NCBI RefSeq assembly: GCF_000430025.1
Contig: NZ_AUCZ01000004.1
Span: forward strand, 1 to 64,000
DNA length: 64,000 nucleotides
Reading direction: 5' to 3'
Origin: Flavobacterium suncheonense GH29-5 = DSM 17707
GTDB taxonomy: Bacteria; Bacteroidota; Bacteroidia; Flavobacteriales; Flavobacteriaceae
In this document: positions 5,210 through 30,419 of the stretch, piece after piece
How positions within the stretch are numbered: the stretch's first letter is position 1
How the letters are laid out: each line of letters begins with the position of its first letter
Position numbers and translations under genes: made by a program
Notes under the pieces: model-generated
Told to the model about the DNA's origin: nothing
The model's database searches: none
The model's input: only the letters and a program-made list of their open reading frames with translations

Positions 5210-5259
5210 TTCAGATTTTTAATAGATTATAGTAGGTTGTGTCGTTTGTATAAATAACT

Positions 5260-5550: not shown

Positions 5551-5560
5551 TTTTATGAAT

Positions 5561-5607: not shown

Positions 5608-5851
5608 ATTTTTGTTGTTTTTATTCTCCTGTAGTTTATTGGCAATGTATCAAACTTAGTGATACAACAATTATCAATACCTAGCAATTTAATAATCAGT
5701 AATTACTAAAAGGATAAACCTGAAAATAGCAAATACCAATCTCTTTTTTTATAAGGTTCTGGTTTGTGTGATAAGGTATTTAAGTTATAAATGACGAAAA
5801 AAGATTTCTTTAAAACATTTGTTAATTATGGATTCTACCATAAACAACTAA

Positions 5852-11069: not shown

Positions 11070-11073
11070 AATC

Positions 11074-14633: not shown

Positions 14634-17600
14634 ATGAGTGATAATTACCCAAGATTTATATCAACATTACCTTTAGGAGTAGATAAACTAAAGGGTAGCT
14701 CACATGATAATATTGCTAAATCAATAAGTAGTATTATTAAAAATCAGAGTCATGAAATAAAAAAACAGATAATTGGTCTTGAAGGAGATTGGGGATCTGG
14801 TAAATCTAATATAATTAAGATAATTCAAAGGGAGGAAGAAGCTTATCTCAATAAAGAAAAATATGTTCATTTTATTTATGATTCTTGGGGACACCAAGAA
14901 GATTTAAATAGAAGAGCTTTATTAGAAGAGTTAATTGATTTTTTGGATTTAAAAGAAATAATTCCTCAAGATGTTGACTGGAAAAAAAAGAAAAATGAAT
15001 TAAAAGGAAAAACAGTAACTTCTATTAAAAATATTTATCCTGAAATTAAGTTTTTTTGGATAATTTTTATTTTATGTTTTTTATTCTATGCTTTCCTCAA
15101 AACAATCTATCCAATCATATCATCTATTGATTTTATTCCAAACAATAATCTTGGGGTTTTTAAAGAGTTGTTATTAGTCTGGTTTATCCCTGCAATTTTG
15201 TTTGGTATAGGTTTTTATCATCTTGTTTTAGAGATTAAAAATCAATTTGAAGAGAATGAAAAAGAGGGGGAAAACAAGTTGACTGGTAGGCAGCTTTTAG
15301 GCCAAATATTTTATTTGCTAAATGGAAAGGAGATAAAAAGTAACACTGTTGATTATGTGATTGAAAATGAACCCTCAAATAAGGAATTTAGACGTTTTTT
15401 GAAAGATATAAATAAAGAATTGTTGAACAATGGGAAAACGTTAATCTTAACAATAGACAATATTGATAGATTGTCAAAAGAAAAGGTAAAAGCTTTATGG
15501 TCAACAATTAATATTTTTTTTGCAGAAAATAGTGAAAATGAATTGTATGATAATATTTGGTTAATTATTCCATATGATGAAAGTAAGATTGTCGAATGTT
15601 TTACAGAAAATAATGATAAAGAAATAGGAAGAGGTTTAATTGATAAAACTTTTGCAGTTAAGTTTAGGGTTACTCCGCCATTATTTTCAAATTGGGAGCA
15701 ATTACTTGAGGAGAATTTAGTTATGTCTTTTGGCGCAAATTTTATCAATAATGTGGAAGAAACTCACTTTGTCAAAAGAATCTTTGACAATTATATAACA
15801 GATTCAGTTATTAAGCCTAGACAGATAATTAACTATGTAAATGATATAGTAACGTTGCATCTACAATATCCAGAAATTAATTTTCGCTATTTAGCATTAT
15901 TTTCAATGACTAAAGATTCGATACTTAATGACGAACCCAATGAAAATAATTCAAATAGAAAAAGAACTCCTAATGAAATGATTTTATCTAGATCGTATAT
16001 AAATGAAAATACACAATTATTATTTAAAGGTGATAGAGATATAGATAAGTCTATGGCTGCAATTGTTTTTGGAGTATCTCTTGATAATGCGGAGGAGGTT
16101 CTTATGGATCGAGAGATCGAGACAATTCTTGTTAATGGCAAGGTTGATGAATTAAATAAATTTTTAGATACCGTATCATTCCCGGCCCATTTTGAGAAAA
16201 AGTTTGCAAAAATTTCACTGTCAAATATCACTTTAAAAAATATCGCTTTACTGCCTGATATTTTAACCAAACTTGAAGATTTAAATCTTGTAGATAAAAA
16301 TATAATTAGTAATTATTGGAGAGATTTAAATGATAGACTAATTAGTAATGATTATTATCACAAAGAGTTTTATGATTTACATAAAAAAATCACGTTAAAA
16401 GATATTTCTTTAGGGAAATCTATTTTAAATAAATGTGTTGATGTCTTGTATTATGAAATCAGAAGTGCATCTGGGGAAGAACAATATATAAATGGAATTT
16501 ATGAAGTTAGTACTTTTTTGGATAATGAAGTTGAAGGTCTCGATTTAAAAGATTTAGACCTTAAAAATAGAAGTATAGAACCTTCCAGCTTTTTTTACCT
16601 TTTAGAGAAGGTATCTGAAGATTATATAGTTTACAACCTCACATGTACACCCCAAAAAATAAGAGAATATTTTTATACAGATGACAATATTTTAGACATT
16701 GAGCGATTAGAATCAGAATTGAAAGGTTTGAAAATATTAAAGGAGAACGTTGATTTCGATTTCACAGAGATTGTAGCTGATTTAAAATCTGGTTTAAATG
16801 AAATAACAGAATCAAATATAGATGAGATAAAATATTACTTCGAATGTCTACAAGTATTAACAGACAGTAATCCAATTGATGACATTTCAGTAAATAAAGG
16901 GGTTATTAATTCAAGTATTCGAAAATCAAAAGATAATAAAGAGATATTAGTTTTATTATTAGCGTTTGCATTAAAAAACGCACATGATTTGTCCCCTAAT
17001 TACGAACCAGAAATTTTTAATGAGATACAATCCTTAAATGATGAGTCTACAATTAGGTTATTAGCTTTAAAAATTGAAAATGTAATTACATTTCAAAAAC
17101 TTTTGGAAATTATAATTGAAAATCAATTTAATTATGAATTGTTAAAAAGAGTTGTAAAAGAAATGACAAACAATTCACATCTAGGAAAGAGATTGAATAT
17201 TAAATGGGTTCTAGAAAATTTTCAGTTGATTGAGGAAATAATTTTTGAAAATAATGATGTACTAGTCTATAGGTTTTATCGTAAACTATCGGGATGGGCT
17301 ATTCATGTTGAAGAAAAATATGATAAGAAATTTAATGATATTACTAACATAAATATTAATGTTGTTGATTATGTTTTGAAAATTGATAATAATCTATCTA
17401 AGGTGCTTGTTAAATACTTTAATTCCTATTTTAAGGAATTAACTAAAGAAAAATATTATGATATTTTTGAAAATAGAGACCTTTTCCATAATCAACTTTT
17501 TAGAAAAATGAATAATAAAAAAATTGAACAAGTTGTATATTTTGAAAAGGTTTTTCCTTGTTTAATGGAATATCTTAAAGACTTTGCTTCAAGTAAAATT

Positions 17601-18014
17601 AATGTCCAACAGTCACAATTTGTTTTTTTAAAAAAATTATTGATTCAACTCGATAAAAAAATTATTGTTAATTTTTATAAATCAATACTTGATTCTTTAA
17701 ATTGTAATTCAAGTTTAAACCATTCACATATAATATTCTTCTTTGACGATATCGTTAACCATAATTTATTAATTAAGAAGCCTGATGAATCAATAAACGG
17801 AATTTTGAAGGTTCTATTAGAAAATGACTTTTTATATGGTAAATATTTTTCAAAGCATTATAAATTGTATGTAGACGTAGTGTCAAAAGGAAAGGATAAT
17901 AAAGCTAGTGGAATAGTTTTGTTGAAAGAAAGACTTAAGAATTATCCTAAGAAAAATGATATGAGGGTTTATGCGGATAAAAAAATACCAAATTGGTCAA
18001 AAACAAAAAGATAA
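14634..18014 (+). CDS. KAP-family P-loop NTPase, membrane-anchored
   Basis: A 1126-residue protein. The N-terminus has a Walker A motif GDWGSGKS (51-58); two membrane spans follow at about 140-165 and 180-200; a Walker B region is seen at LILTIDNIDRL (about 269-279). A P-loop domain interrupted by two membrane spans is the hallmark of KAP NTPases, which occur in mobile, patchily distributed genes and are suspected of antiviral or membrane-linked roles. The remaining 700 residues are helical, hydrophilic and unlike anything I recognise. The gene is much more AT-rich than the core genes of the window, which suggests transfer. It sits alone on this strand and faces a micropeptide and an Mrr-like nuclease on the other. 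Confidence 0.85.
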   Translation: MSDNYPRFISTLPLGVDKLKGSSHDNIAKSISSIIKNQSHEIKKQIIGLEGDWGSGKSNIIKIIQREEEAYLNKEKYVHFIYDSWGHQEDLNRRALLEELIDFLDLKEIIPQDVDWKKKKNELKGKTVTSIKNIYPEIKFFWIIFILCFLFYAFLKTIYPIISSIDFIPNNNLGVFKELLLVWFIPAILFGIGFYHLVLEIKNQFEENEKEGENKLTGRQLLGQIFYLLNGKEIKSNTVDYVIENEPSNKEFRRFLKDINKELLNNGKTLILTIDNIDRLSKEKVKALWSTINIFFAENSENELYDNIWLIIPYDESKIVECFTENNDKEIGRGLIDKTFAVKFRVTPPLFSNWEQLLEENLVMSFGANFINNVEETHFVKRIFDNYITDSVIKPRQIINYVNDIVTLHLQYPEINFRYLALFSMTKDSILNDEPNENNSNRKRTPNEMILSRSYINENTQLLFKGDRDIDKSMAAIVFGVSLDNAEEVLMDREIETILVNGKVDELNKFLDTVSFPAHFEKKFAKISLSNITLKNIALLPDILTKLEDLNLVDKNIISNYWRDLNDRLISNDYYHKEFYDLHKKITLKDISLGKSILNKCVDVLYYEIRSASGEEQYINGIYEVSTFLDNEVEGLDLKDLDLKNRSIEPSSFFYLLEKVSEDYIVYNLTCTPQKIREYFYTDDNILDIERLESELKGLKILKENVDFDFTEIVADLKSGLNEITESNIDEIKYYFECLQVLTDSNPIDDISVNKGVINSSIRKSKDNKEILVLLLAFALKNAHDLSPNYEPEIFNEIQSLNDESTIRLLALKIENVITFQKLLEIIIENQFNYELLKRVVKEMTNNSHLGKRLNIKWVLENFQLIEEIIFENNDVLVYRFYRKLSGWAIHVEEKYDKKFNDITNININVVDYVLKIDNNLSKVLVKYFNSYFKELTKEKYYDIFENRDLFHNQLFRKMNNKKIEQVVYFEKVFPCLMEYLKDFASSKINVQQSQFVFLKKLLIQLDKKIIVNFYKSILDSLNCNSSLNHSHIIFFFDDIVNHNLLIKKPDESINGILKVLLENDFLYGKYFSKHYKLYVDVVSKGKDNKASGIVLLKERLKNYPKKNDMRVYADKKIPNWSKTKR

Positions 18015-18049
18015 TAAATCAAAGATTGAGGTATGCACTGACAATAAAA

Positions 18050-18067
18050 AGACGCCCAAAAGCGTCT
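18050..18067 (-). terminator. Terminator for the 45-residue micropeptide
   Basis: AGACGC (18050-18055) pairs with GCGTCT (18062-18067) around CCAAAA. The T run (TTTTTATTG) lies on the minus strand, so it ends the transcript from 18212. It may also slow the convergent NTPase transcript. Confidence 0.7.
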
Positions 18068-18074
18068 CATCTAA

Positions 18075-18212
18075 TTATCCCATAGCATTTAGCTCATCCA
18101 TTCGCGCCTCTAATACTTCAATTTGTTTTGCAATATCATAACAATAGTAAATCGTAGCAATTAAAATCATAGCAGCTAAAATAAGCATCCAATATGCTTT
18201 TAAAAATTTCAA
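18075..18212 (-). CDS. Single-span membrane micropeptide (45 aa)
   Basis: A 45-residue frame with a TTG start: a basic N-terminus (LKFLKAYW), one membrane span (about residues 8-26, MLILAAMILIATIYYCYDI) and an amphipathic C-terminal helix (AKQIEVLEARMDELNAMG) that could form a coiled coil. An in-frame stop two codons before the TTG (at 18218) fixes the upstream limit. A TATTTTTG promoter element (complement of 18239-18246) lies 27 nt before the start and a terminator follows the stop within 10 nt, so it is a complete small transcription unit. No family recognised. Confidence 0.6.
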   Translation of the reverse strand: MKFLKAYWMLILAAMILIATIYYCYDIAKQIEVLEARMDELNAMG

Positions 18213-18327
18213 GATGTGCTAGCTTATAAATTAGGCTGCAAAAATATAAAAATATTCTTACAAAAAAGAAACTTAAAGGCGACTTTTATTTCATAATCTA
18301 ATCAACTTTTATAGCCTTATTAAAACA

Positions 18328-19194
18328 TTATTTCTTATGTTCTATAATCAAACCATTTTCCGAAAATGAAAATGTTTTTTCTTCAAAAATAGATTTCATT
18401 ATTAGCCAAACTTTATCAACCAGTGTAAATTCTAAATTTTTACTTTCATTATTTTGAGTTAATTTCCCTGTAATAGTAACAACATCTAATCTAATACTCT
18501 CATTTATACCTTGTCTGAAAAGTTTGCTTTCCGGTAGTTTGTAGCTTTTAATAATTTCAATTTCCATCTTTTGCTGATTAGCCACGTATTTGCGAAAATC
18601 GGTCACATAATCATAAAAGGGACGGCGTTTCCCATCGATGAGTTCTACATAATAATTGAAAAGATCCAATTCATCTTGGACGTCTAGAAATCGATTATTG
18701 CCTAGATTAATTTGTAGAAGTTTTGGGCGTATAGCTGTAATGTTAAGATTAACTTGTAAAGTTCCTAACTCAATTTCTTTTGGCCTTGAACTTTGGTCAT
18801 TATTGTTCCATTCCTTTAAAGTTACTAAACCAATGTTTTTAAATTTTGCGTAATCAATCGCATCTTTAGTAAAGCCTTCTTTGGAGACTATGATACCTTT
18901 ATTAATGCTAGTATCTTCTATAATTCCAAATACCTTCATGACAATGTCTCTGTTGACTTTCTTCTTCCAATATTTACATTCTATAGCAGTATCGTAGGTA
19001 TTTATTCCATCAGAATGTGTTGTTAAAACATCGATTTGATAATTACTACCAGACCTGCCGGTAACTTTACATTTACTGCCAAATCCTTTTACCTTAACTC
19101 CGGATTGATGGCCTAACATTTCGTAAATGTATTTCGTGATTGATTCGTAAATTTTCCAATCTAACTTGTTAGTCGGTTGCATATCAATTTGCAT
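18328..19194 (-). CDS. Mrr-like restriction endonuclease
   Basis: A 288-residue protein. Residues 10-130 fit the Mrr_cat PD-(D/E)xK fold: YQIDVL (Asp55), IECKYWKKKVNRDIV (Glu72, Lys74) and a following GIIVSKEGFTKDAIDYAK segment. In type IV Mrr-type enzymes this domain cuts DNA carrying modified bases. The C-terminal 150 residues are not a known recognition domain that I can name and may bind DNA or another signal. The catalytic triad is intact. An inner ATG (fifth codon) is a possible alternative start. It lies between two micropeptide genes, close to the KAP NTPase, inside an AT-rich region. Confidence 0.85.
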   Translation of the reverse strand: MQIDMQPTNKLDWKIYESITKYIYEMLGHQSGVKVKGFGSKCKVTGRSGSNYQIDVLTTHSDGINTYDTAIECKYWKKKVNRDIVMKVFGIIEDTSINKGIIVSKEGFTKDAIDYAKFKNIGLVTLKEWNNNDQSSRPKEIELGTLQVNLNITAIRPKLLQINLGNNRFLDVQDELDLFNYYVELIDGKRRPFYDYVTDFRKYVANQQKMEIEIIKSYKLPESKLFRQGINESIRLDVVTITGKLTQNNESKNLEFTLVDKVWLIMKSIFEEKTFSFSENGLIIEHKK

Positions 19195-19244
19195 AAAATG
19201 AATAATGCTAAGTTAAACTAAAAGCTTTATGATTACATTAAAAA

Positions 19245-19277
19245 AAATGAAAGACGCCTCAAAAGCGCCTTTCATTT
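19245..19277 (-). terminator. Terminator overlapping the 40-residue micropeptide stop
   Basis: AAATGAAAG (19245-19253) pairs with CTTTCATTT (19269-19277), with an inner CGC/GCG pair. The minus-strand T run (ATTTTTTTT) shows it serves the small gene at 19272-19394. The loop CTCAAAAG resembles that of the terminators at 18050 and 22621. Confidence 0.7.
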
Positions 19278-19394
19278 CCTATTCCTCCAACTACCATTAT
19301 ACCCACGATACTTCCCACCATCATAAGCTTTCCCCCGCAACCAAATCCCGGCAAGCACAAATACAATTAACCCTAAAATTTCATACCATTCCAT
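19272..19394 (-). CDS. Single-span membrane micropeptide (40 aa)
   Basis: A 40-residue frame with an ATG start: acidic opening (MEWYE), one membrane span (about residues 6-20, ILGLIVFVLAGIWL) and a basic, glycine- and tyrosine-rich tail (RGKAYDGGKYRGYNG, then SWRNRK). A TATTTTTG promoter element (complement of 19399-19406) lies only 5 nt before the ATG, which would make the message nearly leaderless. A hairpin terminator covers the stop codon. Promoter, frame and terminator together suggest a real gene. No family recognised. The remaining 19407-19592 shows nothing else I can name. Confidence 0.5.
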   Translation of the reverse strand: MEWYEILGLIVFVLAGIWLRGKAYDGGKYRGYNGSWRNRK

Positions 19395-19592
19395 AACCCA
19401 AAAATACAATAAGGTAGAGTAGTGGTGGTTAGGGTAAAACCAAATGCTCCGTTTTGGATAACTGTTTATCCCAAATTAACAACTACAAATGTTGCTATAA
19501 AAACATAAAGATGCCCTAATGCATTTTTATGTATAAACAATAAATAAGTTTCAGTTTTGTACTAAAATCCAGCCAGCTTTAACAAAACCGCT

Positions 19593-19605
19593 GTTATAGG
19601 CAGTA
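19593..19605 (+). repeat. Left 13-bp inverted repeat of a two-gene cassette
   Basis: GTTATAGGCAGTA here matches the complement of 21590-21602 (GTTATAGGCATTA) at 12 of 13 positions. The pair brackets exactly the two genes 19608-20675 and 20679-21566. The left copy abuts the stop codon of the first. Confidence 0.55.
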
Positions 19606-19607
19606 CT

Positions 19608-20675
19608 TTAAAGTTCAGTTTTAATAGTCACTATCTGTTTAATTTCTCCGTTTTCAATTTGTAGTCGTAATTGTTCATAGTTTATATTATTTCCACTCAT
19701 CACACTTACATTCCCAAGTGCTTCTTGAGGCCCTTCAATTTTTAAATCATCTAAAAGAACTATTTGTCCTCGATGAAGTTTTCTGTCTACTAAAGTTAAA
19801 TCCTTGGTAAAAGAATTTGGATATTTAGAGCCAATATCTGTTCCAAATCTTCTAAGTAATTCATCAGTAAAGTGGTCTTCACCAAATTCTTGCGGATTAA
19901 TTATGCCAGATGTGTTTTCTCTGTAAAGTACATTTATGGCATTTTTGAGCCCTCTTTTATCTTCAAAACCTTGAATATTTGTATCAATAAATTTAAAAAC
20001 ATCTTCATAGAAGTTTTTTGTTACTAATTTATCATTTGAGTTTGAATTAAATCCTAAGAAAGTAGAATAAAAATATTCCGCTAAATCTTTTTTTCCACTA
20101 CTAAAATTATCGTCATACATATAGCAGGAATGTTTTTCATTTGTTTCACTCGCAAGTATATTTTCTTCTAAAAGAAATCCGATTTTATAAAAGTCTTTTG
20201 CAGGTGAAAGAAATAAATCATTTATCAATTCAACTAGTTTTTGATTGTTTAATTCTCTTATGGTAAATGCAACTTGCAATTCAGCCTTAATTACTAATGT
20301 GAAATGTTTATTGTTAATTCTACCATCCATTATTAAAAGGAGTCCTGAAGGAATGGTTTTTTTATCATGACTTTTTGCTAATAAATCTGCAATGCTTTTA
20401 GATTTAGTTATGAATTTTTCATCTGATGAATTTTTCATCTCTAAAGAATAGCTATAAAAACTATCTGCTTCATCATCATCAATTTGCAATTTAAAAAATC
20501 GTTTGTTTTTTGAAAAAGCAGTAGCAATTCGTTCTTTTAAAGTTTCTAACTCTGCCTCTCCAAATCGAAAAAGATTTTCTGAGTATTCTGCTGTTCCAAA
20601 ATCTTCACCTTCTCTTTTTTTATGAACCTTATGAATAATAATTCTCGATATTTCAATGTTTTCAACGTTTATCAT
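19608..20675 (-). CDS. Unknown protein, weakly like nucleoid-associated NdpA family
   Basis: A 355-residue soluble protein. I do not recognise it with certainty. The opening (ISRIIIHKVHKKREG) and central LLIMDGRINNKHFTLVIKAEL recall the NA37/NdpA nucleoid-associated family, in which a similar I-I-H-K-V start is followed by a beta-rich core, but the match is weak. No membrane span or signal peptide. It is the second gene of a pair: it starts 3 bp after the DUF6602-like nuclease. The pair is AT-rich and bounded by inverted repeats. A role in DNA-related defence together with the nuclease is plausible but unproven. Confidence 0.6.
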   Translation of the reverse strand: MINVENIEISRIIIHKVHKKREGEDFGTAEYSENLFRFGEAELETLKERIATAFSKNKRFFKLQIDDDEADSFYSYSLEMKNSSDEKFITKSKSIADLLAKSHDKKTIPSGLLLIMDGRINNKHFTLVIKAELQVAFTIRELNNQKLVELINDLFLSPAKDFYKIGFLLEENILASETNEKHSCYMYDDNFSSGKKDLAEYFYSTFLGFNSNSNDKLVTKNFYEDVFKFIDTNIQGFEDKRGLKNAINVLYRENTSGIINPQEFGEDHFTDELLRRFGTDIGSKYPNSFTKDLTLVDRKLHRGQIVLLDDLKIEGPQEALGNVSVMSGNNINYEQLRLQIENGEIKQIVTIKTEL

Positions 20676-20678
20676 AAT

Positions 20679-21566
20679 TTAATAATCATTTATAAAGTCA
20701 ATATTATTAGGATTTATTTCAAATATTTTTTGCATATAATCTAACATATTTGGATAGCCTAATACACAAGTATTTAGGTGCTCTAAAACTAAATAATATA
20801 GTGTACCTAATGTGCTTCTTTTCTTGTCAAATTGTAATAGTATCCATTCATTTTCTTCTTTGTTTTCAATGAATTCAGGATATAAATTGATTTTGAAAAT
20901 TCCTTGGTCTAATGCAGGTTTATTTATATTTACAATTATTCCTTTATCAAATAAGCATAAAATATTTGGAAGAAATTTCCAGTCTTTATTTTTATAATAT
21001 TCAGTGATATCTTCGTAGGTAAATGTATTACTTATGCCAATAAACATGAAACTTAGTAATGGATTTTTATGTGAGTTGGCAGTAGTTGCTTTGTCAATAA
21101 AAATACCTTTTCCTCCTGCTTCAATATAATTTGGACTTATTTCAGGTCTGGTCAGAAATGAGTGCATTCTTTCTTTTGTTGTAACAAAATCGTTTATATA
21201 TTTTTTATTCCAACTTGATTTAATTTCAGCGTAAGCAAAAATACTTTCATAAGTTAAGTATTCCGTATTATCAAAAGTTCTATATAATATTGGAGTTCTA
21301 AAATTATCAGCAATTATCATATCTAGTTGTGGACTTGCTGAAAGTTTAGTATCAATTATGTGCCCATTACTAATATAATATTTGTCAGGTAGTTTACTTC
21401 TAAAAAAATTTCTAACTGCTATTTCAAAATGATCGCCTGAAGCTCTTATATTTCCTGTATTGTGAATTAATTTGACTTGACTTTGAGCAATATCTATACC
21501 ATCAGCCTCGAAATCGAAGAATGTATCAATTGAAATTTTTCTAAATTCTCTATCCTTTTTTTCCAT
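20679..21566 (-). CDS. DUF6602-like predicted PD-(D/E)xK nuclease
   Basis: A 295-residue protein resembling the DUF6602 family. Core features: NTGNIRASGDHFEIAVRNFF (Glu48), LPDKYYISNGHIID, PQLDMIIAD (Asp82) and FAYAEIKSSW (Glu114, Lys116). This E...D...ExK series is the signature of PD-(D/E)xK nucleases. Known members are uncharacterised and found in variable genome regions. It has no signal peptide. It is the first gene of a two-gene cassette; a TACATTTG element (complement of 21665-21672) about 100 bp upstream is a likely promoter. Confidence 0.75.
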   Translation of the reverse strand: MEKKDREFRKISIDTFFDFEADGIDIAQSQVKLIHNTGNIRASGDHFEIAVRNFFRSKLPDKYYISNGHIIDTKLSASPQLDMIIADNFRTPILYRTFDNTEYLTYESIFAYAEIKSSWNKKYINDFVTTKERMHSFLTRPEISPNYIEAGGKGIFIDKATTANSHKNPLLSFMFIGISNTFTYEDITEYYKNKDWKFLPNILCLFDKGIIVNINKPALDQGIFKINLYPEFIENKEENEWILLQFDKKRSTLGTLYYLVLEHLNTCVLGYPNMLDYMQKIFEINPNNIDFINDY

Positions 21567-21589
21567 CTATTTACGGATGTTTATTTGGG

Positions 21590-21602
21590 TAATGCCTATA
21601 AC
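21590..21602 (-). repeat. Right 13-bp inverted repeat of the two-gene cassette
   Basis: The complement reads GTTATAGGCATTA and mirrors 19593-19605. It lies 24 bp upstream of the DUF6602-like start codon. A related AACCGTTGCTAAC sequence (complement of 21710-21722) follows the stop of the neighbouring protease gene. Confidence 0.55.
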
Positions 21603-21717
21603 GTTCCCCCGGCTTTTGTGTCAGGTGGGACTTTTGTTCCTTTAGTTTTATTTTATCACCTAGTCAAATGTACGAAAAGATCATTCTATTAATTACTAAA
21701 CTCTATGTTAGCAACGG

Positions 21718-22521
21718 TTATTTAAGTAATTCAAAAATAATTGAAGATTTATAAAAAAATGAAATACCAGAATGACTGTTTACTGAATCTTTTACTGGAA
21801 TATGTCCAGCGTTTATTCCTACTAACATTATTTCCCTAAATCCACCACCAAACAATGGAGCTTCAACTTTAATACCTTTTTGAATTGCAAAAACAGGACT
21901 TCCTGATGAACCTCCAAAGGAAAAAGCTTCATATGCTATAACTTGTCCTTCATCTTCACCTGAATATGAATAATCAAATCTAGGATCGCTCGCAATTGTT
22001 CCAGTTCTTAATATTGGTAGATTATTTTTTTTATCATACCAGTCTGGGAAACCAGGAAAAGCAACAAAATCACACACAGTTATTTTTTCCATTAATCTAG
22101 TTTGATCTGCAATATCTTTTAAATTTATGCTAAAACTTGCTTTTGGTTCTTTGCCATTTAAACTTGCAGCTTGAACGTTTTTAAGACAAGCGACATCATT
22201 CATATAATTATCAGAATAAATGAATTGATCAATATTACCAATTAATAGTTCATTGTCATCTGTTGGTAATCCTGTTTGCGGATCTTTCTCTTTATTATAA
22301 ACTATTAATTTTACAAGTTTGAAATTTTTATATTTTGCTGTTCTTTGTTTATAATCAAGATCAATAACATGACGATTTGTTATCAAATTAGTACTCCCTT
22401 CTTCAGATTTTACAAAAAAAGCTGTTCCAGATACTGCCTTTTCTGAGCCTATGTCGTCTTTAAAATACGCTTCAATTCTACTAGCGGCACATAAATAATC
22501 ATTTTTAAAACCGTGATTCAT
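21718..22521 (-). CDS. Trypsin-like serine protease
   Basis: A 267-residue protease of the chymotrypsin fold. The catalytic triad is visible: His51 (LITNRHVID), Asp109 (MNDVACLKN) and Ser206 in GGSSGSPVF. There is no signal peptide, PDZ domain or membrane span, so it is probably cytoplasmic. Short trypsin-like proteases without export signals often act in defence or regulation by cutting a partner; no partner is evident here. Its promoter carries the TTACGG...CCGTAA palindrome shared with the operon at 9866. A C-terminal fragment of another protease with a GASGSA motif lies at 32.5 kb. Confidence 0.85.
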   Translation of the reverse strand: MNHGFKNDYLCAASRIEAYFKDDIGSEKAVSGTAFFVKSEEGSTNLITNRHVIDLDYKQRTAKYKNFKLVKLIVYNKEKDPQTGLPTDDNELLIGNIDQFIYSDNYMNDVACLKNVQAASLNGKEPKASFSINLKDIADQTRLMEKITVCDFVAFPGFPDWYDKKNNLPILRTGTIASDPRFDYSYSGEDEGQVIAYEAFSFGGSSGSPVFAIQKGIKVEAPLFGGGFREIMLVGINAGHIPVKDSVNSHSGISFFYKSSIIFELLK

Positions 22522-22620: not shown

Positions 22621-22644
22621 AAAAAGATGCTTAAAAGCATCTTT
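22621..22644 (-). terminator. Terminator of the XRE regulator gene
   Basis: AAAAGATGCTT (22621-22631) pairs with AAGCATCTTTT (22634-22644). It is symmetric and can work on both strands. It overlaps the stop codon of the XRE gene. Confidence 0.75.
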
Positions 22645-22880
22645 TAGTTTTCATCAAAATCGATTTCAAAATCAAATAATTCTTTTGGATGTTTATTTAA
22701 CCCTTTAGCTAATTCTAAAATTGTTTTTAATTGTATATCTACTTTTCCTTTTTCGATTTTACTTATATCACTAGAATCTACATCACATCTTTCTGCCATT
22801 GAACGATAAGACAGATCTTGTTGAGTCCTAAGAAACTCTAACCTTTTACCAAATAGTATTTTAAAATCGTCTTTTGTCAA
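22644..22880 (-). CDS. XRE family transcriptional regulator
   Basis: A 78-residue protein that is almost entirely one helix-turn-helix domain: GKRLEFLRTQQDLSYRSMAE, then DSSDISKIEKGKVDIQLKTI. It ends with an acidic tail (FDFEIDFDEN). Such small XRE proteins often regulate neighbouring mobile or defence genes. It is expressed away from the SusC leader and toward the protease, from which it is separated by a terminator and the protease's own promoter. Its target is unknown. Confidence 0.85.
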   Translation of the reverse strand: MTKDDFKILFGKRLEFLRTQQDLSYRSMAERCDVDSSDISKIEKGKVDIQLKTILELAKGLNKHPKELFDFEIDFDEN

Positions 22881-22967
22881 AATTTAATTTTCTAGTATCT
22901 AGTGGCAATTTCAATACATTTTTAAAAAATATTGTGGGTTTAAAAACCTACATTTAAAAATATTTCT

Positions 22968-22975
22968 TACATTTG
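22968..22975 (+). promoter_or_regulatory. TACATTTG promoter for the SusC leader
   Basis: TACATTTG followed by C matches the extended Bacteroidota -7 element. No convincing -33 TTTG is placed at the usual distance. Transcription from here would produce a leader of about 460 nt before the SusC start. Confidence 0.5.
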
Positions 22976-23040
22976 CTTTGAAATACATATTTTTGCGATT
23001 CTTTAAATAAAACATTTGAAGCTCTCGCTTTGAATCTCGT

Positions 23041-23403
23041 CTTAGAAAACTGGTAATTTTTTGGCACACGAGAGGATAAGCATGAAGCTCACGACCATGG
23101 CGTGGGCTCTCTTATCTGTGTGCGGGTATACCAGTACCTCTAAGGCATTTAAGTTGAGTTCCACGCTTTTTTATGCACTAAACTCTCTTTTTTCAAAGCA
23201 AAACTTCACTTTACAGGCTCGCAAAATCACAATAAAACCGGCTGGGTCTACCTTGCCGTTATATGCCACTATGGCTTAGCTGCATTAGGCTAATAGTGGC
23301 ATTGTTTTAAACAATGTCAAATCATAACAGTAATGCCTATGATGAAATAATTTTTAAATAAAAAGAGCCTTCTGCCTCGTGTTGGCGCATAAGTACAGAA
23401 GGC
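23041..23403 (+). ncRNA. Highly structured leader RNA before the SusC operon
   Basis: Five helices nest in order around one loop: CTTAG (23041-23045)/CTAAG (23140-23144); CTGGTA (23050-23055)/TACCAG (23129-23134); GCACAC (23064-23069)/GTGTGC (23118-23123); GATAAG (23075-23080)/CTTATC (23111-23116); AGCTCACG (23086-23093)/CGTGGGCT (23101-23108, one wobble). Further downstream are CGGC/GCCG (23239/23255), a 10-bp ATGCCACTAT/ATAGTGGCAT stem (23263/23293) with inner pairing, a CATTGTTTTAAACAATG palindrome (23300-23316) and GCCTTCTG/CAGAAGGC (23367/23396). A 65-codon frame (23082-23279) runs through it but is probably incidental. It may be a regulatory RNA or a mobile, repeated element. Confidence 0.6.
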
Positions 23404-23445
23404 CCAAGTAAACAAAACTAACGTTTCATTAACCAATCCAATACT

Positions 23446-26403
23446 ATGAAAAATTTTTTATTCAGTAGGCATAGGCTGGAAATATTTTGCCTTATTTTTT
23501 CTGTTCTGCCTCTTACCATTCAGGCGCAATCCCAACCACATAAAATAACTGGCACCGTGTCAGACAATAGTGGTGTTCTGCCTGGAGTAAGCATCATTAT
23601 TAAAAACAGCCAAACAGCAACCATTTCAAACGGTAACGGTGGGTATACCATCGAGGCAAAACCTACAGATACTTTGGTGTTTTCCTTCATCGGGTACAAA
23701 ACACAATACATCACAGTAAACAACCAAACAAAAATCAATGTAATCCTTCAAGACGATGCCACCCAATTACAGGAAGTAAAAGTAAACGCGGGCTACTATT
23801 CCGTAAAGGAAAAAGAACGCACGGGCAGTATTGCTAAAGTTTCCTCCAAAGACATCGAAAAGCAGCCCGTAACCAACGTAATCGCAGTTATGCAAGGTCG
23901 CATGGCAGGGGTAGAGGTAACGCAGGACAGTGGCGCACCGGGCGGCGCTTTCCAAATCAAAATCCGGGGGCAAAACAGCCTTCGGGCAGATGGTAACCAA
24001 CCGTTGTATATTATCGATGGAGTATCATACTCCTCCGAAACTATCGGTTCGCTCAACACTTCAGGGATGATGCCCACCATGACGAGCCCTTTAAACAGCA
24101 TAAACCCTTCCGATATCGAAAGCATCGAAATCCTCAAAGATGCCGATGCCACAGCTATCTACGGCTCAAGAGGGGCTAACGGGGTAGTGCTCATTACCAC
24201 TAAAAAGGGAAAGTCAGATAAAACAGTTTTCAGTGTCAATGCGTCAACAGGGGTAGCCTCCGTCACTAAAAAGCTTGACCTTATGAATACTCAGGAGTAT
24301 CTGGCAATGCGCGCCCAGGCTTTCGCAAACGACGGCATCACAACCTATCCCGATTATGCTTACGACATCAACGGCACTTGGAGCCAAGATAGATATACAG
24401 ACTGGCAGGAAGAGTTAATAGGCGGTACAGCCGAAATCAACAACCTGCAAGCTTCGGTTTCCGGTGGCTCTAAAAATACACAGTACTTGTTAAGTGGAAA
24501 TACCCGCTTGGAAACTACGGTATATCCAAAAGCTTTTAAATACAGGAAAAGCGCAGCGCATTTCAGCATGAACCATACGGCCGATAATAACCGCTTCAAA
24601 CTAAACTTTTCAGCCAACTACACCGCGCAAAACAATAACCAACCCGCTACAGATTTAACAGCAGTTTCCAGAACATTGGCGCCAAATGCTCCGGCTTTAT
24701 ACGATGCCAACGGAAGCCTAAATTGGGAAAACAGTACTTGGGACAATCCGTTAGCGTTATTAGAATCTGAGTTTTTTTCCAAAATCAAAGATTTTAATGC
24801 TAATGCGGTATTGTCGTATAACATTCTACCCAACCTGCAACTCAAAACCAGTTTAGGGTACACAGATTTGCGCAGTAATGAGAGTAACACACAGCCTTCC
24901 ACCATGTACAATCCTGCTTATGGGTTGGGCAGCGAAATATCGGGAATCAGCAACAACATCACATCAAGAACGTCATGGATTGCCGAACCGCAAATCAACG
25001 GGAACTGGAATCTCGGGAAAGCTAAAGTCGAGGCATTGCTTGGTACTACTTTTCAAAGCCAGATAACCAATCGGTTGTTTCAGTCCGGTTTTGGTTTTTC
25101 AAGCAACAGCTTAATTCACGATATAGCTTCAGCAAACCTAAAAGCTATCGACTTGAGTGATGAAGCCGTTTACAACTATCAGGCGGTTTTCGCACGTATC
25201 AATTACAATTACGATAGCCGTTACATCCTTAACATTACCGGCAGACGTGACGGTTCCAGCCGCTTCGGACCCGGCAAACAGTTTGCTAACTTCGGGGCGG
25301 TTGGTGCCGCTTGGGTTTTCTCCGAAGAAAAATTGCTGCAAGGCAACAGTATCTTAAGTTTCGGAAAACTTCGCACCAGTTACGGTACCACAGGCAACGA
25401 CCAAATTGGCGATTATCAGTTTTTAGATACCTATGTGTCTTCCGGAAACACCTATCAGGGCACCATAGGCTTACAACCAATACGATTGTTCAACCCCGAG
25501 TTCGGTTGGGAAACCAATAAAAAGTTCGAAGCAGCACTAGAAGCAGGTTTCTTTCAGGATCGTATTTTCCTAACGTCGGCTTATTATAACAACCGCTCTA
25601 CTAACCAATTGGTAGGCATCCCGCTTCCGGGCACTACAGGTTTTCAAACTTTACAGGGTAATCTCGATGCAACGGTGCAAAACACAGGGTTAGAGTTTAC
25701 GTTGGCTTCCAAAAACATTGCAGGTAATGATTTCTCTTGGACAACCAATTTCAATATCTCATTCAACAGAAATAAATTGCTGTCATACCCGGGCTTGGAA
25801 ACATCTCCTTATGCAAATACGTATGTAGTAGGGCAGTCGGTCAATATTGTCAAACTTTACCATTACACAGGTTTCAACCCATTAACTAACCTATACGAGT
25901 TTGAAGATGTAAATAACGACGGCCAGATTACTTCATTGGCAGACAGACAAACTATTGCCAATCTAAGCCCTAAATATTTCGGAGGCTTGCAAAACAACTT
26001 ACGTTATAAAAACCTGCAACTGGATTTCTTGTTTCATTTTGTAAAACAGCAAAGCTTTGGCTATATGCCGGGCGTTCCCGGTACTGCGGTTAATCAGCTT
26101 TCAGAGGTAAGCCATCAGCAATTACCATTTACATCAGGAGCAAATGGTGAAGTTATTGCTGCTTATTACCGTTATGGCTTAAGCGATGCAGCATTGCAGG
26201 ACGCTTCCTTTGTAAGGCTTAAAAACGTATCATTAACGTATGATATTCCTTTGAAAACGAAGGATTTAAAATGTCAGTTGTATTTCCAGGGGCAAAACCT
26301 GCTCACCTTCACACCCTACAACAGTGGCGATCCCGAGTTTAAATTCTCAGGCTATCTGCCCCCATTAAGGGTATTCACAACGGGGGTAAAACTAACCTTA
26401 TAA
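23446..26403 (+). CDS. SusC/RagA family TonB-linked outer-membrane protein
   Basis: A 985-residue TonB-dependent transporter. Signal peptide (ending near TIQAQ), a carboxypeptidase-regulatory-like domain (about 30-110), a plug domain (QGRMAGVEVTQDSGAPGG; IRGQNSL; PLYIIDGV; ATAIYGSRGANGVVLITTKKG) and a 22-strand-type barrel. The linker LQEVKVNAGYYSVKEKERTG marks a SusC subfamily that I associate with SusD plus S9-peptidase loci rather than polysaccharide loci. With SusD it should form a lidded pore that imports a ligand, here more likely a peptide than a glycan because the third gene is a peptidase and no glycoside hydrolase is present. Its start is 42 bp after the last leader hairpin. Confidence 0.95.
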   Translation: MKNFLFSRHRLEIFCLIFSVLPLTIQAQSQPHKITGTVSDNSGVLPGVSIIIKNSQTATISNGNGGYTIEAKPTDTLVFSFIGYKTQYITVNNQTKINVILQDDATQLQEVKVNAGYYSVKEKERTGSIAKVSSKDIEKQPVTNVIAVMQGRMAGVEVTQDSGAPGGAFQIKIRGQNSLRADGNQPLYIIDGVSYSSETIGSLNTSGMMPTMTSPLNSINPSDIESIEILKDADATAIYGSRGANGVVLITTKKGKSDKTVFSVNASTGVASVTKKLDLMNTQEYLAMRAQAFANDGITTYPDYAYDINGTWSQDRYTDWQEELIGGTAEINNLQASVSGGSKNTQYLLSGNTRLETTVYPKAFKYRKSAAHFSMNHTADNNRFKLNFSANYTAQNNNQPATDLTAVSRTLAPNAPALYDANGSLNWENSTWDNPLALLESEFFSKIKDFNANAVLSYNILPNLQLKTSLGYTDLRSNESNTQPSTMYNPAYGLGSEISGISNNITSRTSWIAEPQINGNWNLGKAKVEALLGTTFQSQITNRLFQSGFGFSSNSLIHDIASANLKAIDLSDEAVYNYQAVFARINYNYDSRYILNITGRRDGSSRFGPGKQFANFGAVGAAWVFSEEKLLQGNSILSFGKLRTSYGTTGNDQIGDYQFLDTYVSSGNTYQGTIGLQPIRLFNPEFGWETNKKFEAALEAGFFQDRIFLTSAYYNNRSTNQLVGIPLPGTTGFQTLQGNLDATVQNTGLEFTLASKNIAGNDFSWTTNFNISFNRNKLLSYPGLETSPYANTYVVGQSVNIVKLYHYTGFNPLTNLYEFEDVNNDGQITSLADRQTIANLSPKYFGGLQNNLRYKNLQLDFLFHFVKQQSFGYMPGVPGTAVNQLSEVSHQQLPFTSGANGEVIAAYYRYGLSDAALQDASFVRLKNVSLTYDIPLKTKDLKCQLYFQGQNLLTFTPYNSGDPEFKFSGYLPPLRVFTTGVKLTL

Positions 26404-26418
26404 TCAAACACTACACCA

Positions 26419-27792
26419 ATGAAAAAGCTACTCATATTATCCGTATCGCTAACCTTGTTAGCCTTAACAACTGCTTGCGAGAGTTTTGTTGAGGTCGAAA
26501 CACCCCAATCGCAACTCACAGGCTCCGAGGTTTTCGAAAACCACAACACCGCAAATGCAGCCGTGTTAGACCTTTTTGCAAAAGTACGCGACAACGGCCT
26601 TATCACAGGTTCTGCATTGGGCACTTCGGTAAATCTTGGCTTATATACAGACGAGTTAATCTATTACGGTACAACAGACGAGAACGTTTCTCATATTTTC
26701 AATAACAGCCTGTTGGCAACCAATCCAACAGCACGGCAGTACTGGAACGACAGTTACCATCAAATCTATTGTGCCAATGCTATAATCGAAGGGTGCCAGC
26801 AATCGGTAAGCCTGCAGGAACCCTATAAAACCCAATTTACGGGAGAAGCTTATTTTATCAGGGCTTTGCTGCATTTCTATTTGGTAAATTTGTATAACGA
26901 TGTTCCGTACATCGCCACTACAGATTATCAGCAAAACCGCTTAGCCAGCCGTATGCCTAAAACATTGGTATACGAACAGGTCGTTTCAGATTTACTCCAG
27001 GCAATAGAAATGTTGTCAACAAGTTATCTAACGCCAGACCGGGTGCGTCCTAACAAGGCCACAGCCAAAGCATTCTTGGCGAGAGTATATCTGTATCAGG
27101 AAAACTGGTTGCAGGCAGAAACCTTGGCAACAGAAGTAATCAACACAACCGATTATGTTTGGGAAACCGATATAGACAAAATATTCTTAAAAGAAAGCAC
27201 TGCTACCATTTGGCAGTTTTCACCCAAAATGGAAGGCAACAATGCCGATGAGGCATCGGTCTTTATTTTTAACGATGGCCCGCCGCCGTTCGTAGGCTTA
27301 AGTCCGGGTTTGGCAACCGCTTTTCAGCCCGAAGACCTTCGCAAATCCCATTGGATTAACACCATTACAGACGGAACAAGCATTTGGTATCACGCCCATA
27401 AGTACAAGCAAAATACCAACACGGGAACTTCGTTGGAATATTCGGTTGTCTTCCGTCTGGCAGAACAATATTTAATCCGGGCAGAAGCAAGGTTAAAACA
27501 AGGTAACGAGATTGGAGCAAAATCAGATGTAAATCTTATCCGCAATACCGCAGGTTTGCCCGATACACCTGCAGTAACCGAAGCGGCAATATTCAATGAT
27601 ATTATGCTGCAACGCCGTTTAGAATTCTTTACCGAATATAGCCACCGCTTTTTCGACCTAAAACGAACCGGACAATTAAACGCAGTGTTAACACCAGTCA
27701 AACCGGGATGGAACAATACAGATGCCCATTGGCCAATTCCAGAAACGGAATTACTGGCAAACCCCAACATGACCCAAAATCCCGGATACTAA
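26419..27792 (+). CDS. SusD/RagB family lipoprotein
   Basis: A 457-residue lipoprotein (signal ending TTACES, lipobox Cys about residue 20) of the SusD family: N-terminal TPR-like helices and a C-terminal domain ending with LQRRLEFFTEYSHRFFDLKR, a typical SusD closing segment. It should be anchored on the cell surface and cover the SusC barrel, giving ligand specificity. It lies 15 bp after SusC and overlaps the peptidase start by 1 bp (TAATG), so the three proteins are translationally coupled. Confidence 0.95.
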   Translation: MKKLLILSVSLTLLALTTACESFVEVETPQSQLTGSEVFENHNTANAAVLDLFAKVRDNGLITGSALGTSVNLGLYTDELIYYGTTDENVSHIFNNSLLATNPTARQYWNDSYHQIYCANAIIEGCQQSVSLQEPYKTQFTGEAYFIRALLHFYLVNLYNDVPYIATTDYQQNRLASRMPKTLVYEQVVSDLLQAIEMLSTSYLTPDRVRPNKATAKAFLARVYLYQENWLQAETLATEVINTTDYVWETDIDKIFLKESTATIWQFSPKMEGNNADEASVFIFNDGPPPFVGLSPGLATAFQPEDLRKSHWINTITDGTSIWYHAHKYKQNTNTGTSLEYSVVFRLAEQYLIRAEARLKQGNEIGAKSDVNLIRNTAGLPDTPAVTEAAIFNDIMLQRRLEFFTEYSHRFFDLKRTGQLNAVLTPVKPGWNNTDAHWPIPETELLANPNMTQNPGY

Positions 27793-30419
27793 TGAAAAAA
27801 GCCTATTTACAAGTTGTTTACGGCGCATTAGCTGTATTCATATTTGGGTTTGTTTCCTGCCCTGTAATGGGGCAGGTAGCAACCAAAATCCCGCTTACCG
27901 GGAAAGATTATCACCTGTGGGGCACGTTGCAAACGCGGGCTCTTTCAGATAACGGTAATTGGGTAAGTTATTCAATGTCCTACCCATCGGGTGCCGATAC
28001 GTTGTTTGTCTTAAGTACCAAAACACAAAGGAAATATGTGTTGCCTAAGGCTTTAGACAGCAGGTTCATACAAGAGAACATCTTTGCTTATCGTAAAAAC
28101 AACAGTCTAATACTGCTAAACCTTTCAAACGGAACAGAAACCGGCATTACTAATGTTTTCAATTACAGAATAACGGCAAACGAAAACTATCTTATTACCG
28201 AAGAACCCGTAGCAAACGAAAGTAAAAAGCTGTGCATCCGGAATCTTCAGGGAAAACTTTTGCAATCCATCGATGAGGCGGATAAGTATGTTTGGAATGA
28301 GGCCAAAACAAAAATCCTTTGCACTACAACAGGTTCTATGCCTTCTGTTACTATAATCAGTCTTGTCACAAAACCTCAAGTGAAATTGGTTTGTCAAAAT
28401 GCAAATACAGTTTACAGTGCTTTAACTTGGCAGGAAAATGGGGAAGATGTGGTCTTCTATCGCACAAGTACTAAAAGCGATAAACAATCTGAAGTTGTGT
28501 ATCTCAACAGTAAAGAAAACAAGTACTACAGTTTAAATGAAACAGGTTCAGGTTTTCCAAAAAACTTTAGAATAGATACCAATTCTAACATTGCATTAAA
28601 ACTTTCAACAGACGGCAGTAAAGTATTTTTCGGAATACAAAGCATACTCGAAAAACCCGATAAAGAAAACTTTGAAGGGGTAGAAATATGGAACGCAAAT
28701 GATAAAATCATATACCCTGAAAGAAAGCTAAAAGCTTCTGTGGGCAATACGCAATTATTGGCAGTATGGTGGCCTAAAACCGGAAAGGTGAGTGTAATTA
28801 CCTCAGAGGAAGAATCGTGGATAATGCTAACCGGAAATCAGCAATACGCCATAACGGCCAATCCAATGCAGTACGAACCCGAATACAAACTTTTTGCGGA
28901 CCGGGACTTTTACCTCACAGAACTGGCCAGCGGAAACAAAATAAAGCTCTTGGAAAAACAATCAGGACAACAGGAAATGATAAGAGTGCAACCCAACGGA
29001 AAGTATATTGTTTATTTTAGAGAAGGCAATTGGTGGAGTTATGATACTAACCTGAATAAGCATAGAAATATTACAAAACAGTTACAGTCAGATTGGGACA
29101 ACCGTAAAACAGATCCGGGAGCACAATTAAATGTATGGGGTTTGGCAGGTTTTACCAGCGATTACAAATCAGTGCTGCTTTACGATTATTACGATGTTTG
29201 GTTAATCGATTTGGAAGGAAAGAAAAGCTATAGACTTACAAAAGGTAAAGAAACCAAAACAAGGTTTCGTATTAAAGTAAGCCCGACATCGTATACTAAC
29301 TATTCAGGCCTTCCGGATGCTTTAATCGATCTAAAAGATACACAAATACTAACGGCATTAAATCTTTACGATGGGAGCAATGGCTTTCACGAGTTGCGAC
29401 CAAATAAATCGATAATTTCGTTAGTTACAGAACAGGGAGCAGCAGGCAGATTGCTTCTGTCGAAGAATGATCAGGCTTTTGTTTATGAAACTCAAAAGTT
29501 TGATGTACCACCAAGCCTTATGTTTAAAGTAAGAAATGAGGTAAATCATAAGATTATATATAAAAGTAATCCGCATCACGACAAGTATTTTTGGGGTAAG
29601 TCAGAAATGATACACTACAAAGCCCCTTCAGGAAATGAACTAAACGGAGCATTGTTTTATCCGGCAAATTACAAGCCCGGTCAAAAATACCCTATGATAG
29701 TCTGGATTTACGACACGGTCTCACGGGAACTAAACCAATATGTAAATCCAACACTCAACAATCCCATTGGTTTAAACATTACCAACTTTACTTCAAAAGG
29801 ATATTTTGTTTTATTACCGGATATCGAATTTCAAAAAGGGAGTCCGGGAAAATCCGCTTTAGATTGTGTAACTACAGCGGTCAATAAAGTAATAGACATG
29901 GGTTATACAGAGCAGGGAAAAATTGGATTAAAAGGACAATCATTCGGGGCTTACGAAACCAACTACATTATATCCCAAACCAACTTGTTTTCCGCTGCGG
30001 TTAGTGGGGCAGGCGTTTCCGATGTGGCAAGGCATTATTTCACACTTAATAAAGAAGACAATAAAATAGACGCTTGGCGTTATGAAAATCAGCAGTACCG
30101 CATGGGAAAATCCTTCTTTGAAAACCCGCAAGGCTATCTCGATAATTCACCATTAATGCAGGCGGCTGGGATAAATACACCTTTATTAACCTGGGCTGGT
30201 TTGCAGGACGAAAACGTACTGCCGAAACAAGCCTTAACCTTTTACATTGCATTGCGAAGATTAAACAAAAAACACATTATGCTACGCTACCCCAATGACG
30301 GGCATATTTTTGTTAATGGTAAAAATCAGATAGATTTAACCAACCGCATACAACAGTGGTTCGACCATTTTTTAAAGAAAGAACCCGCAGCAGCTTGGAT
30401 TCAGAAAGGAACGGAATAA
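27792..30419 (+). CDS. S9 family (prolyl oligopeptidase-type) exported peptidase
   Basis: An 875-residue peptidase. A signal peptide (1-27) precedes a beta-propeller-like region (about 40-600) and an alpha/beta-hydrolase domain with Ser717 (GQSFGA), Asp806 (LQDENV) and His838 (NDGHIF), the S9 triad. The start is the ATG at 27792 that overlaps the SusD stop; an earlier in-frame start would overlap SusD by 84 bp. S9 peptidases cut short peptides and cannot act on folded proteins. Being cotranscribed with SusC and SusD, it should trim imported peptides in the periplasm or at the surface. A strong terminator follows. Confidence 0.92.
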   Translation: MKKAYLQVVYGALAVFIFGFVSCPVMGQVATKIPLTGKDYHLWGTLQTRALSDNGNWVSYSMSYPSGADTLFVLSTKTQRKYVLPKALDSRFIQENIFAYRKNNSLILLNLSNGTETGITNVFNYRITANENYLITEEPVANESKKLCIRNLQGKLLQSIDEADKYVWNEAKTKILCTTTGSMPSVTIISLVTKPQVKLVCQNANTVYSALTWQENGEDVVFYRTSTKSDKQSEVVYLNSKENKYYSLNETGSGFPKNFRIDTNSNIALKLSTDGSKVFFGIQSILEKPDKENFEGVEIWNANDKIIYPERKLKASVGNTQLLAVWWPKTGKVSVITSEEESWIMLTGNQQYAITANPMQYEPEYKLFADRDFYLTELASGNKIKLLEKQSGQQEMIRVQPNGKYIVYFREGNWWSYDTNLNKHRNITKQLQSDWDNRKTDPGAQLNVWGLAGFTSDYKSVLLYDYYDVWLIDLEGKKSYRLTKGKETKTRFRIKVSPTSYTNYSGLPDALIDLKDTQILTALNLYDGSNGFHELRPNKSIISLVTEQGAAGRLLLSKNDQAFVYETQKFDVPPSLMFKVRNEVNHKIIYKSNPHHDKYFWGKSEMIHYKAPSGNELNGALFYPANYKPGQKYPMIVWIYDTVSRELNQYVNPTLNNPIGLNITNFTSKGYFVLLPDIEFQKGSPGKSALDCVTTAVNKVIDMGYTEQGKIGLKGQSFGAYETNYIISQTNLFSAAVSGAGVSDVARHYFTLNKEDNKIDAWRYENQQYRMGKSFFENPQGYLDNSPLMQAAGINTPLLTWAGLQDENVLPKQALTFYIALRRLNKKHIMLRYPNDGHIFVNGKNQIDLTNRIQQWFDHFLKKEPAAAWIQKGTE

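Follow-up and report, generated by a model that had tools for sequence, protein, structure and literature searches.

A conserved structured RNA in the leader of a Flavobacterium suncheonense SusC/SusD operon: a probable termination/antitermination switch

Introduction

What does the long leader in front of a SusC-type receptor gene of Flavobacterium suncheonense GH29-5 contain, and could the RNA made from it act on the operon that follows? The locus lies on a 333-kb contig (NZ_AUCZ01000004.1) of a 2.88-Mb genome, and all coordinates below are those of the window, the 64,000-nt stretch of this contig that was analysed. The original prediction, made from the letters alone, placed a multi-helix RNA element, either regulatory or mobile, at 23041-23445. 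Our comparisons indicate that the conserved structured RNA is shorter, spanning about 23003-23172 and perhaps reaching 23226, and that it is probably a cis-acting bistable leader controlling transcriptional termination and antitermination of the operon behind it. The second of its two folds, a terminator (23099-23172), was absent from the original prediction and is the more informative half.

Results

Two folds with one common strand

The leader as a whole (23010-23445) is more stable than 100 of 100 shuffled versions (fold energy z -3.9), and the segment 23030-23160 has a minimum free energy (MFE) of -46.2 kcal/mol (z -4.4; 1 of 200 shuffles was equally low). The five helices said to nest around one loop are present and form part of the MFE fold; they appear as V1 (8 bp with one G-U pair), A1, V2, C and D in Table 1 and make up a long rod, the antiterminator or state 2. 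The other inverted repeats of the prediction are also there, namely a 10-bp stem (23263-23272/23293-23302), a near-perfect palindrome (23297-23319) and an 8-bp hairpin readable in the sequence (GCCTTCTG/CAGAAGGC). Judged by the blastn matches of relatives, hairpins within 23230-23445 fall outside the conserved part.

On a structure-blind alignment of 42 sequences (MAFFT, not fitted to structure), the rod together with the UCUC/GAGA helix P2 is paired in 91.5% of 1594 cells, against 81.9 +- 0.5% in shuffles, and 20 of 39 pairs have changes on both sides. The covariation score of this fold is 0.262, against 0.098 +- 0.006 in shuffles, and controls in which the rod was slid along the alignment pair in only 37-42%. 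When 89 sequences (matches from 88 sources: the window, 62 nearer loci and 25 of 60 farther loci) were aligned by fitting to the rod, 97.5% of cells were paired and 32 of 34 pairs were compensated. V2 keeps all six of its pairs compensated on the blind alignment, but is paired in only 62% there, the register shifting at this point.

The rod's own 3' strands, plus CCACGC-UUUUUU, build the terminator. On the blind alignment 23099-23105 and 23107-23115 pair with the 3' strand in 97.3% of 628 cells, against 95.6 +- 0.2% in shuffles, with 6 of 15 pairs compensated. Its covariation score is 0.192, against 0.157 +- 0.004, a value reached by none of 500 shuffles (for the number of further pair types, by 2 of 500), and like the rod it also exceeds its slid controls. 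The complete state 1 (P2, hairpins A and B, and the terminator) is paired in 93.1% of cells across the 89 sequences, against 88.2 +- 0.2% in shuffles, with 21 of 28 pairs compensated; as that alignment was fitted to the rod, it was not fitted to state 1. The 10 nt after strand 3 have a T fraction of 0.72 (0.33 in the flanks), and 79 of the 89 copies have a run of four or more T within 10 nt. Inspection by eye shows joint changes of strands 1, 2 and 3 in some distant members, with both pairings kept: GCTCACG/GGCGTGG/CCACGCC becomes TGCGTCC/GGACGC/GCGTCC followed by TTTTT, for example at loci L144, L153 and L155.

Thus compensatory changes, whose absence would have spoken against the original prediction, occur in both folds. 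The element has two mutually exclusive helices with one common strand, both conserved, and a U tract behind the terminator helix, as terminator/antiterminator leaders do. This covariation shows that the helices of both states have been preserved during evolution, and that they compete for strand 2.

Energy balance and loop complementarity

The terminator or the antiterminator pairs were forced in 77 of the 89 copies, 12 having been dropped in which fewer than five pairs of a helix could form. The average energies of the two folds are close across these copies, with a mean difference of 4.1 kcal/mol in favor of the antiterminator and total energies near -50 kcal/mol in the copies displayed. The unconstrained optimum is antiterminator-like in 46, terminator-like in 27 and neither in 4.

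The loop of hairpin A (CUGGUAA) is complementary to that of hairpin B (UACCAG), and the A1 strands make up most of both loops, so that a loop-loop contact is possible. As read by eye, these loops co-vary in distant members (CTCGCA/TGCGAG in L151, CTTAGGAA/TTCCTAAG in L139). Palindromic apical loops (CCCGGG, CCTAGG, CCATGG) were considered as a dimerisation signal and discarded, many other loops in the set not being palindromic.

A long-range helix closing the element is suggested, weakly and with partial support, by pairing of the 5' end with the 95 bases after the element. In the 83 copies with a TTGC[GA] start the duplex energy is -18.1 kcal/mol, against -12.3 for shuffled 3' parts, and 3 of 5000 permutations were as low as the cognate mean. 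However, because the 3' parts of other copies do nearly as well (-17.0), the pairing may reflect common sequence more than covariation. In six copies with short leaders (L091, L140, L142, L147, L160 and L161) strand 3 has a 5' flank complementary to a segment shortly ahead of the start codon; changed pairs seen by eye, and uncounted, include GTTCC/GGAAC, AACCCA/TGGGTT and CGAGCCT/AGGCTCG. This raises the question of whether the pre-start segment might serve as a fourth strand of the switch.

Distribution of the element

In a blastn search with 23010-23445, 49 of 299 genomes of the family Flavobacteriaceae, our own included, had a match. Apart from the genome's own, and two short weak ones further 3', the matches fall inside the first 197 of the 436 bases (about 23010-23206) at 69-86% identity; beyond about 23206 sequence conservation in the leader's 3' part is slight. 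A covariance model built from the 42 sequences found one strong copy in the source genome (147.8 bits), the next-best match there (21.5 bits, E 0.13) not being counted. At E <=0.01 the model matched 51 of 395 sampled Bacteroidota genomes, our own included; these genomes fall under 12 family labels, carry as many as 6 copies each and come from a search whose stricter filters lose weak matches. Within the source genus 65 of 121 genomes, again including our own, had a match. A strict DNA pattern recovered at least 119 stretches, among them members of Chryseobacterium, Flavobacterium, Maribacter, Salegentibacter, Terrimonas, Nubsella and Sunxiuqinia. Homologues are therefore not confined to close strains and extend to other families and classes of Bacteroidota.

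Is the element mobile? Among 72,556 plasmid records two matched by blastn (Chryseobacterium shandongense and Rhizosphaericola mali). Phage records gave no blastn match, and viral contigs gave none for one strict DNA pattern, which would miss divergent members. The two plasmid copies and the complementary ends (22991-23036 and 23192-23226, as imperfect terminal inverted repeats) would suit a small element resembling a miniature inverted-repeat transposable element (MITE), but there is only a single strong copy in the source genome, orientation and gene neighbourhood are fixed (with no search made for target duplications or empty sites), and the dispersed copies in varied contexts that mark mobile elements were not found among the copies; we regard this explanation as most improbable. 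Of the two natures first proposed, the regulatory one is thus supported by covariation, distant homologues and lack of coding character, whereas the mobile one is not supported, given the single strong copy and an orientation kept in 116 of 124 copies. Separately, L043 carries two copies of the RNA (6076-6224 and 11039-11187) about 5 kb apart with very similar leaders, each ahead of a short frame of the SusC cluster (called at 523 aa and, for the second, which reaches the end of the stretch, at 122 aa); the pair is perhaps a recent duplication.

Genomic context and promoter

Two scans gave 60 and 89 matches, 25 in common, and hence 124 distinct copies. Open reading frames (ORFs) around them were called by a simple script and neighbour counts are approximate; neighbour clusters were formed by blastp and named from a few Pfam-tested members. 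Counting only ORFs of 100 aa or more, the closest one downstream shares the element's strand in 116 copies and lies on the opposite strand in 7, with none in the remaining copy; the distance to it ranges from an overlap to 1416 nt. Terminator/antiterminator leaders likewise precede a same-strand gene, and we read the element as cis-acting because of this arrangement. It could instead be a stand-alone small RNA (sRNA) that acts in trans, about 165 nt long and equipped with a promoter and terminator of its own, whose place before these genes is due to chance. Promoter-like boxes upstream and a U tract at the end do frame a compact gene, and Bacteroides is known to have sRNAs linked to polysaccharide utilisation (PMC11697453, on FopS and RbpB). 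Chance placement, however, fits poorly with the same-strand genes, and a plain terminator needs no conserved alternative partner for strand 2; we consider this alternative unlikely.

Among the first four same-strand frames downstream, a SusC-cluster gene occurs in 62 of the 124 copies, a sigma-factor gene in 12 and a TnpB/Cas12f-like gene in 9, the last two together in 8. The element contains highly conserved stretches, and the genes downstream are diverse. Upstream, 77 of the 124 copies have a divergent small gene belonging to one of seven clusters; among the 62 SusC copies the number is 57. Fifty-eight of the 77 belong to three clusters (29, 23 and 6) with a tested member above the Pfam cut-off for a helix-turn-helix (HTH) domain; 11 belong to a cluster whose tested member matched HTH_3 below the cut-off, 2 to one whose tested member had no match, and 6 fall in two untested clusters. 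Many farther members lack this gene and precede other kinds of genes.

The association with TnpB/Cas12f-like proteins suggests another possibility, that the element is the guide RNA of such a protein encoded beside a sigma factor. Nine of the 124 copies precede a gene of this cluster, and 6 of the 7 sampled genomes with the protein also carry the RNA, 3 of them directly upstream of that operon. Yet 45 of the 51 RNA-bearing genomes, the window's included, have no protein match (one query, E 1e-10), and the conserved 3' end is a U tract with no variable guide after it. On this co-occurrence we rejected the guide RNA reading, which seems to us very unlikely. The protein itself is present in 7 of the 395 phylum genomes (E 1e-10); in Pfam one member gave a sub-threshold OrfB_IS605 match and another none. 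At eight loci (L046, L063, L067, L074, L076, L082, L125 and L131) the RNA, at about 4950-6250, and a divergent small gene stand before a sigma-factor-like gene followed by the TnpB/Cas12f-like protein, which in those viewed has 365-381 aa and seemingly lacks the usual RuvC aspartate (two inspected by eye). Nuclease-dead Cas12f (dCas12f) acting with sigma factors is reported to carry out RNA-guided transcription, and this label and mechanism are applied to the protein here only tentatively.

With regard to the promoter, the box noticed earlier upstream of the element is readable in the sequence and is the first of two (Table 1). In the 90 nt upstream, the pattern TAnnTT[TAG]G is found in 99 of the 124 copies and clusters at about -62 and about -42 relative to the start of the model. 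PMC9723704 gives TAnnTTTG as the consensus of the -7 box.

Coding potential

An open frame (23061-23279) runs through the element in the window, and a leader-peptide attenuator, in which translation of this frame sets the fold, was therefore considered. Relative to the window, the length of 23061-23172 is offset by 0, 1 and 2 (mod 3) in 34, 27 and 28 of the 89 sequences, so that it is shifted in 55, and 72 of the 89 have a stop in the frame. Because of these shifts and stops we conclude that the frame is not coding; the test refutes a leader peptide in it, and translation-set attenuation is highly improbable. As had been suspected, a nucleotide element rather than a protein is conserved, and a 'hypothetical protein' annotated over it would be an artefact.

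A different small ORF (20-49 aa) lies between the RNA and SusC in 21 of the 124 copies (e.g. L041, L042, L070 and L085), with [FY]xILFxKKPKxP[IV]-like residues before the stop. The motif was found in 0 of 124 copies on the reverse strand and in 0 of 2480 shuffles, and it was not found in the window's own leader. In the five codons before it variability at positions 1, 2 and 3 is 0.257, 0.152 and 0.495; because of this pattern the ORF looks coding. Its conserved end recalls ribosome-arrest peptides, by analogy. Two of these ORFs gave no Pfam match. In many copies, by eye, a second inverted repeat follows the small ORF (TTATGGGA ... TCCGG ... TCCCATAA).

Table 1. Positions of the RNA strands, promoter-like boxes and adjoining genes in the window.
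Feature	Position	Strand	Evidence
Divergent 78-aa HTH_3 (Cro/C1-type) protein	22644..22880	-	Pfam HTH_3, E 1.7e-9
First promoter-like TAnnTTTG box, TACATTTG	22968..22975	+	box match in relatives
Second, more often matched TAnnTTTG box, TATTTTTG; probable promoter (predicted)	22988..22995	+	box match in relatives
Possible long-range closing helix, 5' arm (partner 23219-23226)	22991..22998	+	TTTTGCGA/TCGCAAAA
P1 hairpin AAGC/GCTT	23019..23030	+	sequence; changed pairs in relatives by eye, unscored
P2 5' strand UCUC (pairs with GAGA, 23070-23073); nested in state 1, pseudoknot with state 2	23035..23038	+	93.8% paired, 3/4 pairs compensated
V1 5' strand (pairs with 23139-23146), state 2	23039..23046	+	7/8 pairs compensated, blind alignment
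Hairpin A, GAAAA-CUGGUAA-UUUUU, state 1	23045..23061	+	91.6% of cells paired, 3/5 compensated
A1 5' strand ACUGGUA (pairs with UACCAGU, 23129-23135)	23049..23055	+	99.7% paired, 1/7 compensated (42 sequences); 6/7 with distant members
V2 5' strand (pairs with 23118-23123)	23064..23069	+	6/6 compensated, 97% paired (model alignment)
C 5' strand GAUAAG (pairs with 23111-23116)	23075..23080	+	97.6% paired, 1/6 compensated
D, antiterminator strand 1, GCUCACG (pairs with 23101-23107)	23087..23093	+	99.7% paired, 2/7 compensated
Strand 2, common to antiterminator and terminator	23099..23115	+	covariation of both folds
Hairpin B, GGUA-UACCAG-UACC, inside terminator loop	23125..23138	+	97.8% paired, 2/4 compensated
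Terminator strand 3 (UUAAGUUGAGUUCCACGC) and U tract	23149..23172	+	97.3% paired, 6/15 compensated; T-rich tail
Downstream segment complementary to 5' end	23192..23226	+	duplex energies
SusC-type TonB-dependent receptor, first gene after leader	23446..26403	+	Pfam Plug, CarbopepD_reg_2
SusD/RagB protein	26419..27792	+	Pfam
S9 prolyl oligopeptidase family protein (start uncertain, overlaps SusD)	27708..30419	+	Pfam

Discussion

We favor the possibility that the element is a leader RNA which switches between two folds and thereby decides whether transcription reaches the operon. Our model, which is built from sequence comparison, is as follows: (i) transcription would start near 22996-23003, and the divergent HTH protein is probably the regulator of initiation from this promoter region, judging by its position; (ii) in state 2 the long rod V1-A1-V2-C-D would occupy strand 2, and polymerase would continue into SusC; (iii) in state 1 the 5' part would fold locally, with P1 and with P2 around hairpin A, and strand 2 would pair with strand 3 (23149-23167) around hairpin B, giving a GC-rich hairpin that, with UUUUUU, may halt polymerase; and (iv) strand exchange may begin at hairpins A and B, through their complementary loops. 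Since the 5' strands of the rod are the first to be made, competition in the course of transcription probably determines which state results, and the balance might be tipped by a ligand, a protein, a trans-acting RNA or the speed of transcription.

Several observations weigh against this model. Our shuffles ignore relatedness (they preserve column make-up, while the slid controls preserve relatedness), so part of the excess over them could come from shared ancestry. As to the terminator, 10 of the 89 copies lack a run of four T within 10 nt, and its loop in the window is about 35 nt long with an inner hairpin, long loops being known to weaken intrinsic terminators. A simple consensus scan with a loop limit of 8 did not report the strand 2/3 terminator, and the single terminator-like site that it did report corresponds to the rod's hairpin D with the tail CTCTTATCTG. 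The energy difference is widely scattered among the 77 copies (standard deviation 7.4, range -14.3 to 30.6 kcal/mol), and the window itself prefers the rod by about 8 kcal/mol (-55.9 vs -47.8). Finally, no function is common to the downstream genes, and for a metabolite riboswitch this would be unusual.

There is precedent for leaders of this general kind. Riboswitch platforms, T-box leaders and trp-type attenuators likewise exchange three strands (1:2 or 2:3) and have a U tract after strand 3, before the regulated gene. The element differs from them in having no Rfam family and no leader peptide in the frame tested, and in that much of its 5' domain refolds. Antisense-controlled plasmid attenuators of the pT181/pIP501 type also combine hairpins with complementary loops and an attenuator, but here the complementary loops lie in one molecule.

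The Rfam scan proposed at the outset gave no family for the element: across the window, Rfam 15 (4227 families) at the gathering threshold returned only DUF805b, elsewhere; a scan of 22940-23450 at E up to 5 found nothing overlapping 22940-23330, and one of four distant loci at E up to 1 found none. Flavo-1 RNA is in Rfam, and the scans of the element gave no match to it. This motif of Flavobacteriaceae, named in PMC9723704, resembles the element in belonging to 5' regions of the same family; that paper reports 64 structured 5' regions in F. psychrophilum. No description of the element was found in a full-text literature search, which leaves absence unproven as subscription journals are mostly outside it. 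On these Rfam and literature searches the element appears to be undescribed.

The sRNAs FopS and BTnc201 of Bacteroides (RF04319 and RF04177) are RNA families of the same phylum, and the paper naming FopS also mentions SusC genes (PMC11697453). They represent a different element, with their only matches on the minus strand, at 23353-23450 and 23358-23450 respectively, and far under the gathering scores (20.2 of 56 bits for FopS, 20.7 of 105 bits for BTnc201). Just upstream of the SusC start, within 23353-23450, the GCCTTCTG/CAGAAGGC hairpin follows an A run and, on the minus strand, has the look of a terminator, and similar A-run hairpins stand before SusC in several relatives (by eye); an antisense sRNA before SusC is possible there. 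Elsewhere in the window, 14634-22521 holds a defence-like run of genes encoding a KAP NTPase (weak PifA/QatA similarity), an Mrr_cat endonuclease, an NA37 nucleoid protein, a DUF6602 protein (NucC-like nuclease similarity) and a trypsin-like PDC-S45 protein, and the DUF805b RNA (RF02914) lies at 55027-55058 on the minus strand (38.1 bits vs a gathering score of 35.6).

A broader proposal is more tentative: the element may be an undescribed, phylum-wide, signal-sensing RNA switch of Bacteroidota whose 5' domain refolds for the most part, with complementary loops as a possible trigger, accompanied by a dedicated HTH gene in near relatives and placed before surface-nutrient operons and sigma-factor/TnpB-Cas12f-like operons. 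If this is true, the switch would respond to a new signal, be it a riboswitch ligand, an RNA-binding protein or a trans-acting RNA. Because it has no Rfam match, Rfam-based annotation misses the element and may call spurious small proteins over it. SusC/SusD operons are a main route of uptake of large nutrients in Bacteroidota, and most of their known control acts at initiation. A widespread RNA switch in their leaders would, if real, add control at the level of elongation, and its trigger would be an orphan signal that is directly testable. The presence of the element before sigma-factor/TnpB-Cas12f-like operons as well hints at a common regulatory logic.
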